DNA of 64,000 nucleotides, taken from NCBI RefSeq assembly GCF_004367585.1, contig NZ_CP038015.1, forward strand, positions 1,184,001 through 1,248,000, in the 5' to 3' direction. This DNA is from Paenisporosarcina antarctica (GTDB lineage: Bacteria > Bacillota > Bacilli > Bacillales_A > Planococcaceae). Positions 43,190-46,742 of the stretch are shown piece by piece. A model generated the notes under the pieces. It had not been told where the DNA came from and searched no databases. It was given only the letters and a program-made list of their open reading frames with translations. Every line of letters begins with the position of its first letter. Position 1 is the stretch's first letter. Position numbers and translations under genes: made by a program.

Positions 43190-43693
43190 ATGCGTATTGT
43201 AGTGATGAGTGACACACATGGAGAAACGAATTCGATTGATCAAGTCAGGCATGCAGTAGGACCTGTAGATGCTGTTTTTCATTGCGGAGACAGCGAACTC
43301 GATATACAACATGAATCGCTACAAGATGCTTTTGTAGTCGAAGGCAATTGTGATTGGGATTCCTCTTATTCAGCTGAAGTTTTCACCGAAGTTAATGGAG
43401 TAAAAGTTTTTATGACACATGGTCACTTATGGCAAGTGAAATCTACACTAATGCCATTAAGTACCCGAGCTCAAGAACTAGGAGCTGACCTGGTTCTCTT
43501 CGGACATACTCATTTGTTAGGCGCAGAGCTTATAGGTAGCACACTTTTCGTAAACCCAGGCAGTTTAGAATTGCCGAGAGGCCGCAAAGAAAAGAGCTAT
43601 GCGATTATTGAAAAATCACAATTAAAGTGGATGGTAACATTCTTTTCCGATGCTCATAAACAGCTGGAACAACAAGTATTTTCGATAGTTTAA
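43190..43693 (+). CDS. YfcE/MJ0936-type metallophosphoesterase
   Basis: A 167-residue calcineurin-like phosphodiesterase with MSDTHGE, FHCGDSE, EGNCDWD, MTHGHLW and LFGHTHLL, which supply the two-metal site. Matches B. subtilis YsnB in position after rph and rdgB. Physiological substrate unknown. Confidence 0.9.
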   Translation: MRIVVMSDTHGETNSIDQVRHAVGPVDAVFHCGDSELDIQHESLQDAFVVEGNCDWDSSYSAEVFTEVNGVKVFMTHGHLWQVKSTLMPLSTRAQELGADLVLFGHTHLLGAELIGSTLFVNPGSLELPRGRKEKSYAIIEKSQLKWMVTFFSDAHKQLEQQVFSIV

Positions 43694-43701
43694 AAATAAC
43701 C

Positions 43702-43730
43702 TTGACTTATGGTGGGAATATTTCTATAAT
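43702..43730 (+). promoter_or_regulatory. Promoter of the split tRNA-Arg gene
   Basis: TTGACT (43702-43707) and TATAAT (43725-43730) with a 17-bp spacer, about 40 bp upstream of the tRNA. The gene is therefore probably expressed. Confidence 0.8.
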
Positions 43731-43771: not shown

Positions 43772-44131
43772 GTCTCAGTAGCTCAGCCGGATAGAGCAAC
43801 GCCCTTCAAGATATTAGGAGCCTTTACAGGGAAACAAAAACCTGTGGAGTGGACGACACTATATCGGTGAAACCTTAACAGATCATGCTGATGGCAATAC
43901 CGAGGAAACTTACGCTTCACTTTGGTGAAGAGAAGGCAATCTGAATGATTACGCAAGTAATGGTAAGAATGCTAAAAATCGTTCATTCGACGTGAGGTTC
44001 CGTAGAGACTACACGTGTCGCACCTGCAATGGTGAAGATATAGTCCAGACTACAAACAATGTTACATTGGTAGCGAAAGCTATGGTGGTAAGCTAAGGCG
44101 TCGGTCGGGGGTTCGAATCCCTCCTGGGACG
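43772..44131 (+). tRNA. tRNA-Arg(UCU) interrupted by a group I intron
   Basis: The exons are 43772-43806 and 44093-44131. Joined they give a 74-nt cloverleaf: acceptor GTCTCAG/CTGGGAC (one G-U pair), D stem GCTC/GAGC, anticodon stem ACGCC/GGCGT, loop CTTCTAA with anticodon TCT, T arm GGGGG-TTCGAAT-CCCTC and discriminator G. CCA is not encoded. The intron interrupts the anticodon between U34 and C35, so the tRNA cannot function unless the intron is removed. It would read AGA (and perhaps AGG). Confidence 0.93.
43807..44092 (+). ncRNA. Self-splicing group I intron (286 nt) in the tRNA-Arg anticodon
   Basis: The intron has no ORF. The core pairs as expected: P2 ACAGG/CCTGT (43826-43830/43841-43845), P3 CGACAC/GTGTCG (43854-43859/44015-44020), P7 GACTA/TAGTC (44007-44011/44041-44045) and P8 CACC/GGTG (44021-44024/44031-44034), with the conserved GAAGATATAGTCC. 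The guide TTAGGAG (43814-43820) pairs with the 5' exon CUU, giving the U-G wobble at the 5' splice site, and with the 3' exon CUAA (P10). The intron ends in G. GNRA loops GCAA (43953-43956) and GAAA (in the terminal hairpin near 44070-44085) are present. Subgroup not determined. Confidence 0.93.
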
Positions 44132-44249
44132 TAGAGTTTTATAACGTTATATCTAGAGAAATAAGCACTTTCGCTTATGATTCAATATTACAGTACTCGG
44201 TCAGTCGAGTTTCTGTACTAAAGAATTGTAGGTGGAGGTGCTTTTTTCT

Positions 44250-44775
44250 TTGTCCAAAAAGAAGGGGATATTTGATATCCAAATTGAACAACCACTATTC
44301 CCAGTAAAAAAACAGCCAGAGAAACGGAATGACCTACAAATTGAACAAGCATTGACAGTGGTTTTAAAGCAACTTGAAGTGGGTGGTTGTCGTGAAGAAC
44401 AATATAGGATTACCGTACAATTGTTCACTACTTTACTAAAGATACTAAGGTTGAGTATTTGGTAGATATAACGAGTGACATTATATATTTGTGGCTGGGG
44501 CAGATGAATGTTGCTAATACGACTAAATTAACTCGTTTAAAGTGTTTCTAGGACGTTGTTTTGATAATGGGTGGCTTGCTAATAGGTTTTGGCGGTCAGT
44601 AAATATCGAAGTAGATACAGAAACAAAGATAGGGGCATCAGATGAAGATGTAAATTTACTATTATCTGTTCTCGATTTGTTTAAACTAAGTTCAGCTAAT
44701 TCAAAGACTAGTGTGTATGGAGAAGGTACTACAAAGAGTGCAGCAGCAATAATTGAAATAAAAGATAAGAAATAA
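44250..44775 (+). pseudogene. Decayed tyrosine recombinase (integrase), N-terminal part
   Basis: A TTG start at 44250 with GGAGGTG upstream opens a 71-codon frame. Conceptual protein similarity then passes to another frame near 44425 (KVEYLVDITSDIIYLWLGQMN), stops at TAG near 44548, and resumes in a third frame (FLGRCFDNGWLANRFW, to 44775). Read together these look like the core-binding domain of a phage-type integrase, with at least two frame changes and no catalytic domain left. Identification is from remembered resemblance of VDITSD..YxWL and LGRCFDNGW segments, so moderate. Confidence 0.5.
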
Positions 44776-45792: not shown

Positions 45793-46014
45793 TTATTTTT
45801 TTGAAGTTCTTGGAGTTCTAGGTTCTAAACAACTAGAACATTTTTTCTGATTACTAGCTTTAAATTTAGTTAAAGTTTTTTCGAAATTATTTCCACATGA
45901 ACATTTAAACAGTAATTTTTGTGAGAATCCAAGATACTCAGTAGAAAGTAGTTCACAATCTGAATTCTTCTTAACATACTCACTGATATTTTCAATAGTC
46001 CATTTTTTATTCAT
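45793..46014 (-). CDS. Small zinc-ribbon protein
   Basis: A 73-residue protein beginning MNKKWTIENISEYVKKNSDC with a zinc-ribbon: CSCGNNFEKTLTKFKASNQKKCSSC (in two CxC/CxxC halves) near residues 37-61. This 'LLFKCSCG..F..' module is common in phage and mobile-element proteins, often fused to nucleases; here it stands alone. ATG 46014 follows GGAGGTG. Function unknown; it may be a DNA-binding remnant of a larger nuclease. Confidence 0.68.
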   Translation of the reverse strand: MNKKWTIENISEYVKKNSDCELLSTEYLGFSQKLLFKCSCGNNFEKTLTKFKASNQKKCSSCLEPRTPRTSKK

Positions 46015-46238
46015 ATTAACACCTCCGATAATGATTCCGAATAATAACACAGGAAGAAGTTTCGGATACCTTCCTTTAATTTAGGATAATGTCTTCCTAA
46101 TCTATCTGCTTTGCCCATTATACCATCACTTTTGCGCCAGAATGCTTTAAGATTTGATACAAAATCAATATTAGAGTTTCTTACATTATAAGTAATGGGT
46201 ATAGATAATAATCAAAAGAAAGTTTTAGGGGGTGTAAG

Positions 46239-46742
46239 ATGGAACATCATACTAAAAACAAAGATGATTTAGGTGTCCTTAAGGCTCAAGTGGATTTATG
46301 CAGCAAAGGTTACTTAATTTTAACGCCTTTATCAGATCTCTCTCCATTTGATCTAGTTGCCTATAAAAATGGAGAATTTATTCGGATTCAAGTTAAATAT
46401 AGAAGTGTTAATTCCAAAGGATTTTTGTTTGTAAGATTTAGTTCTTCATATAGTACATCAAAAGGTTGTTGTGAAAAACCCGTTGATAAGAAGGAAGTAG
46501 ATTTATACTGTGTGTATTGTCCAGACACGGATAAGTGTTACTATTTTGATCCGAAAAAGTTTAAAAGCACTGTAAATATTAGAATCAACAAGACGCTTAA
46601 TAATCAAAGTGAAAAAATTAATTTTGCTGAGGATTATTTAATGATTCCTACAGTAAATAGAAATTCACTTGTTTCTATTGAAAACGAAACTCAGGTTTCC
46701 TTTTGCATATTACGTCAAGTGTTCTTTTGTCTTTTAGCATAA
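46239..46742 (+). CDS. PD-(D/E)XK endonuclease of the I-Ssp6803I (group I intron-associated) family
   Basis: A 167-residue protein with the nuclease core at residues 3-56: HHTKNKDDLGVLKAQVDL, the first metal ligand Asp38 in LSPFDLVAY, and the Q-x-K end of the motif in IRIQVKYRS (Gln51, Lys53). The central LYCVYCPDTDKCYYFDP is typical of the same family. The family's founder, I-Ssp6803I, is the homing endonuclease encoded in a cyanobacterial tRNA-fMet group I intron. Start ATG 46239 after AGGGGGTG. The last 25 residues look unrelated to the family and the stop codon lies inside a long hairpin arm. It may act on the intron-less tRNA gene in trans; that is inference. Confidence 0.72.
   Translation: MEHHTKNKDDLGVLKAQVDLCSKGYLILTPLSDLSPFDLVAYKNGEFIRIQVKYRSVNSKGFLFVRFSSSYSTSKGCCEKPVDKKEVDLYCVYCPDTDKCYYFDPKKFKSTVNIRINKTLNNQSEKINFAEDYLMIPTVNRNSLVSIENETQVSFCILRQVFFCLLA

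Follow-up and report, generated by a model that had tools for sequence, protein, structure and literature searches.

The split tRNA-Arg(UCU) gene and its surroundings

Within the 64 000-nt stretch of Paenisporosarcina antarctica DNA analysed here (the window), positions 43772-44131 hold a split tRNA-Arg(UCU) gene, in which a 286-nt intron (43807-44092) lies inside the anticodon, between U34 and C35. The 5' exon (43772-43806) ends with U34, and joining it to the 3' exon (44093-44131) gives a 74-nt tRNA-Arg(tct). ARAGORN, when permitted to place introns, recovers the same tRNA-Arg(tct) and puts the 286-nt intron at the junction of ccctt and ctaag; with introns disallowed, it reports no tRNA anywhere in the window. 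A preliminary description made from the sequence letters had read the locus as a two-exon tRNA-Arg(UCU) interrupted between positions 34 and 35, and this reading is borne out. The gene, together with the promoter, integrase remnant and endonuclease gene described below, lies on the forward strand. A sigma-A-type promoter (TTGACT-17-TATAAT; 43702-43730) ends 41 nt 5' of the tRNA and agrees with the consensus at 11 of 12 positions; the call is a consensus match only, in a region that gives 1.8 promoter-like matches per shuffle when shuffled. The gene on the 5' side (43190-43693) is, going by Bacillus gene order, presumably that of a YsnB-like phosphoesterase-type protein. Directly 3' of the tRNA is a broken tyrosine-integrase gene (44232-44679), which is matched in a tblastn search with the integrase of a related genome, G006 (PF00589), at 44357-44548 (with two stops) and at 44527-44679. 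It is probably the leftover of an element that had tRNA-Arg(UCU) as its attachment site. Related integrases occupy the same place, after the tRNA, in two intron-less congeners (G002 and G004).

A tRNA search of the P. antarctica genome gave at least 59 tRNAs (150 of the 297 candidates were scored). In the same stretches, the arginine anticodons named by ARAGORN, besides that of the split gene, are ACG and CCG, and there is no other UCU or CCU tRNA among those named. The intact second tRNA-Arg(UCU) gene that the preliminary description had weighed as an objection was found neither in this way nor by direct pattern matching for an uninterrupted UCU tRNA, which gave no match in the genome. As no second tRNA-Arg(UCU) or tRNA-Arg(CCU) was found, splicing seems to be needed: judged from gene content, it looks essential for the host, and AGA and AGG together account for 23 of the 2925 codons in ten window genes. 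Similarly, 22 of the 23 intron-bearing genomes of the family are without a pattern-matching intact tRNA-Arg(UCU), the exception being G206, which has one. These data bear on the alternative that the locus is a tRNA pseudogene, decayed and carrying an unspliced insert, with AGA being read by another tRNA. Such decay would accord with the adjoining integrase remnant and with the score of the Rfam match, which is under the gathering score (see below); nevertheless, the exons are intact, the codons are in use, no other UCU or CCU tRNA was found in the genome and the helices of the intron covary, and we regard this alternative as very improbable.

Structure of the intron

The internal guide, TTAGGAG (43814-43820), pairs through its GAG with CUU of the 5' exon to form P1, with a U.G pair at the splice site, and through its TTAG with CUAA of the 3' exon to form P10. 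There follow the P2 hairpin (43822-43849), the 5' strand of P3 (43854-43859), the P4-P5-P5a domain (43864-43903), and P6/P6a with the variable P6b region (43904-44001), the latter being the site of an endonuclease ORF in relatives. The catalytic core (44007-44045) comprises P7 (44007-44011 with 44041-44045), the 3' strand of P3 (44015-44020) and P8 (44021-44034); the P9 domain (44049-44089) includes a GAAA-capped P9.2, and the last base of the intron is G. Pairing is perfect in both P7 and P3, a core helix whose strands are ~160 nt apart, just as the preliminary description had noted. The conserved group I core is thus present, with P3-P8 and P7 pseudoknotted with P4-P6, as are the terminal G and the P10 alignment of the 3' exon. 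A match to a group I covariance model, the lack of which would have told against the earlier assignment, exists but is weak: the Rfam Group I catalytic intron model (RF00028) matches 43797-44064 over its full length with an E value of 0.0055, although, as its 21.6 bits are below the gathering score of 50, a default Rfam scan misses the intron.

Comparative support comes from a structure alignment of 28 tRNA-Arg introns with their exons (27 distinct), drawn from Bacillota together with one gammaproteobacterial and one Cytophagales sequence. Across the 27 distinct homologues, 97.9% of the cells of the named structure are paired, falling to 35-41% when the partners are shifted by 1-3 columns. Both-sided changes are seen in 31 of 82 pairs (tRNA stems included), against a shuffled mean of 11.7, and none of 500 shuffles scored as high. 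Within the intron, they occur in P2 (7 of 9 pairs), P3 (4 of 6), P5a (2 of 3), P6a (4 of 6) and P9.2 (4 of 5), with none in P9; P4, P7 and P8 are paired in all 27 sequences yet invariant, and so speak neither for nor against the model. P1, including its U.G pair, is likewise invariant in 27/27. The first P10 pair (G-C, invariant) and the second are held in every sequence, and the third in 25/27; the outermost U-A is held in only 7/27. The proposal that the guide complements the whole joined anticodon loop therefore stands for P1 and the inner pairs of P10, but not for the outermost one.

The conserved structure suggests how the tRNA would be matured. The transcript of the sole tRNA-Arg(UCU) gene would fold as a group I ribozyme; guanosine would attack on the 3' side of U34, where P1 has its U-G pair; the freed 5' exon would then attack after the terminal G, leaving the loop CUUCUAA intact and releasing the 286-nt intron.

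Distribution of the intron and of the empty site

Five of the nine genomes of the genus (the window genome being one of the nine) carry an uninterrupted gene with ...CGCCCTTCTAAGGCG..., identical to the joined exons; this is the intron-less allele that the preliminary description had proposed to seek among relatives. In an intron-bearing congener, G003, a degenerate intron-less tRNA-Arg copy with the loop CTTCGAA (G003:C22:200820-200890) lies ~1.7 kb to the 3' side of the gene that has the intron.

At the level of the family, an intron occupies exactly the same site in 23 of 261 genomes (25 before two matches shorter than 35 bases are discounted). The family was taken to be Caryophanaceae, since Lysinibacillus odysseyi and Chryseomicrobium excrementi have contigs and introns identical to some of those surveyed. 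A class-level sample has the core pattern in 31 of 399 genomes and 12 of 145 genera, and the 30 loci fetched are nearly all within tRNA-Arg, with ARAGORN's reading of some shifted by one base. Among named genomes, scanning gave at least 118 core-pattern loci, with at least 37 tRNA-Arg(UCU) introns after U34, from Bacillota, Bacteroidota and Gammaproteobacteria; the other loci include CAU-anticodon tRNAs and tRNA-Leu(UAA), the latter having introns after U34 with the same core pattern in other phyla. The survey was made without Rfam, as RF00028 at an E value of 0.1 missed four loci, including introns. Many core-pattern matches in Patescibacteria (L072, L075, L108, L121, L170 and others) are outside recognizable tRNAs, some of them apparently in rRNA genes.

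In a quick tree of the introns (283 columns), Bacillota and Bacteroidota fall together (support 99), apart from the Gammaproteobacteria, and the majority of Bacteroidota form a single nested group (96). The introns of three close congeners form one clade (100); that of a further congener, G001, joins Exiguobacterium (85), away from the window intron. The labels mostly cluster by phylum, which we count against taking cross-phylum transfer as proven.

In genome G006, a 25-kb integrase-bearing element sits inside the intron-bearing tRNA (G006:C1:1294580-1320321; L178 and L179). Since its far end carries a 119-bp repeat (98%) of the 3' part of the intron and the 3' exon, the attachment site of this element seems to extend into the intron.

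A free-standing endonuclease gene downstream of the tRNA

An ORF for 167 aa (46239-46742), which the preliminary description had not noticed, begins 2.1 kb downstream of the split tRNA gene and encodes a putative PD-(D/E)XK homing endonuclease. It matches PDDEXK_5 of Pfam (PF11645; 114.8 bits), as does an intron-borne ORF in genome G063, and a profile search matches it to 2ost with an E value of 5.8e-5. The best Foldseek match of the predicted structure (pLDDT 76) is also 2ost (E 1.1e-10, ~20% identity), that is, I-Ssp6803I, which we take to be the endonuclease of the Synechocystis tRNA-fMet intron. D38 and the Q51-V52-K53 motif are invariant (n=16); the family profile, the fold and the catalytic residues of an I-Ssp6803I-type enzyme are therefore all present. 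NCBIfam has no matching model, either for the endonuclease or for its small neighbour, an 85-aa ORF on the reverse strand (45793-46050) with a zinc-ribbon-like cysteine motif and no Pfam match; in G006, this ORF and the endonuclease share a strand, whereas in the window they are on opposite ones. The endonuclease genes of the window and of G006 are in the same place, beside a histidine-kinase gene, and their products are 82% identical; with dN 0.09 and dS ~2.1 (near saturation), the comparison indicates purifying selection on the window copy, with that of G006 as the reference.

Endonuclease genes of this family are present in 9 of 261 family genomes, in several arrangements. In G063, the homologue is an ORF in P6b of a 637-nt intron, and G067 has a decayed intron-borne copy. 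Elsewhere, the gene is downstream of an intron-bearing tRNA: at 2.1 kb in the window, <250 nt in G217 and G163, 8.5 kb in G158, and 34 kb in G006, 25 kb of which is the inserted element. G185 and G201 keep decayed relics of the endonuclease with intron or exon scraps, their tRNAs now being intact; no such intron or 3'-exon remnants were found beside the free-standing gene of the window. Fredinandcohnia resembles G217 and G163 in having a free-standing gene just 3' of an intron-bearing tRNA-Arg(UCU), and in these three, as in the window, it accompanies an endonuclease-less intron. Locus L195 (G390) has, downstream of an intron-bearing tRNA-Arg, an endonuclease gene that ~150 bp divide into two parts. 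Remnants of a P6b ORF persist in G001 (the C-terminal end) and in G025 (both ends), and by this comparison of sequences some endonuclease-less introns are deletion derivatives.

The association extends to phages. Among viral contigs, 21 of 23 relatives with at least 48% identity adjoin or lie inside tRNA-Arg(UCU), though these are not independent events, as the phage sequences are related by common ancestry: 18 follow an intact tRNA-Arg(UCU) at a distance of ~40-75 nt, one immediately precedes it and two are inside a tRNA-Arg(UCU) intron. Synechococcus phage Sf-FR1 has the same pair of endonuclease and tRNA-Arg(UCU). This linkage suggests that the putative endonuclease is specific for tRNA-Arg(UCU). 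In the endonuclease tree, most phage genes fall together (94/89), whereas the free-standing and intron-borne genes of bacteria are intermixed, from which it appears that the endonuclease has probably switched between the two states more than once in bacteria. Apparent group I introns were also observed in phage tRNA genes (L225, OR578706; L226, MF403008; L228, LR756508; L230, LR745208), among them tRNA-Leu(UAA) of Agrobacterium phage Atu_ph07 and tRNA-Arg of Microcoleus phage My-WqHQDG; a 2014 review places every phage group I intron known at that time in a protein gene (PMC3984707).

Probable mobility of the intron

Taken as a whole, we consider it likely that the intron is self-splicing and belongs to a mobile lineage kept at a single site, positions 34/35 of tRNA-Arg(UCU), and spread by a homing endonuclease of the I-Ssp6803I type. 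The endonuclease would cut the intron-less tRNA-Arg(UCU) near the anticodon, and repair would copy the intron in; the free-standing enzyme of the window could drive such co-conversion from 2.1 kb downstream. Mobility is suggested by the empty allele in congeners, the patchy occurrence at an identical site and the grouping of the G001 intron with Exiguobacterium. Among the points against it, 2.1 kb is a long co-conversion tract, and the sister of the window gene in the endonuclease tree is a single sequence, 82% identical.

Alternatively, the intron may splice but now be immobile, having been inherited vertically with repeated loss, and the endonuclease close by may have nothing to do with it. 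The single clade of close congener introns would fit such a history, as would the window P6b, in which no endonuclease remnant was found above shuffles, and congener G003, in which the intron is present and no endonuclease gene was found. Set against this are the presence of the same endonuclease family within this intron among relatives and next to tRNA-Arg(UCU) in both bacteria and viral contigs, the purifying selection on the window copy, and G001, where a different intron lineage with endonuclease remnants occupies the same site; we therefore think immobility unlikely. Within the mobile interpretation, the endonuclease is seen in three states: free-standing in viral contigs, next to a tRNA-Arg(UCU) without an intron; free-standing in Bacillota chromosomes, next to one with the intron; and intron-borne in Bacillota and Bacteroidota. 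There is perhaps an even chance that these represent one tRNA-Arg(UCU)-specialized lineage; collaborative homing would then be aimed at an essential tRNA gene of the chromosome, and phages might serve as vehicles from one phylum to another.

Relation to known systems

Small group I introns are also found in tRNA-Ile(CAU) of Azoarcus and tRNA-Arg(CCU) of Agrobacterium, although the anticodons and the insertion positions differ from those here; the window intron presumably resembles that of Azoarcus in its GNRA-capped P9 and similar core letters. The cyanobacterial tRNA-Leu(UAA) intron shares the position after U34 but has a different host tRNA, and we know of no endonuclease in it. The Synechocystis tRNA-fMet intron and I-Ssp6803I offer a further parallel, in that the intron is likewise a bacterial tRNA group I intron and the PD-(D/E)XK fold is shared; however, the tRNA and presumably the target are different, and I-Ssp6803I is intron-borne whereas the window gene is free-standing. 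Collaborative homing by free-standing endonucleases is known from phage protein genes, whereas the present candidate case, known from sequence, involves an enzyme of the PD-(D/E)XK type and a tRNA gene of the chromosome. In cyanophage S-PM2, for example, a separate endonuclease gene, that of F-CphI, is reported to mobilize an endonuclease-less intron (PMC6083498).

The host tRNA itself has a precedent: one report records that tRNA-Arg-TCT contains putative group I introns in Beggiatoaceae (BOGUAY and Thiomargarita nelsonii Bud S10; PMC4853749). These belong to Gammaproteobacteria, and the gammaproteobacterial introns that we sampled, from other genomes, are outside the Bacillota/Bacteroidota clade (support 99). 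The novelty suggested in the preliminary description is accordingly narrower than proposed, the same site being occupied in many bacteria, although a literature search of mostly open-access papers found no published tRNA intron from Bacillota. The portion of the 2014 review available to us mentions none either and sees little evidence for horizontal movement of bacterial introns (PMC3984707). As tRNA-Arg-TCT introns and PD-(D/E)XK intron endonucleases were already known, the newest part is the three-state endonuclease.

In P. antarctica, it thus appears that a ribozyme is required by the only AGA-reading gene found in the genome, a gene that default Rfam and tRNA scans miss. If the three-state interpretation is true, the arrangements would form a living series for the assembly or dismantling of mobile introns. 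Because there are congeners both with and without the intron, the empty site is conserved and the endonuclease occurs in three arrangements, the mobility of a bacterial chromosomal intron becomes directly testable.
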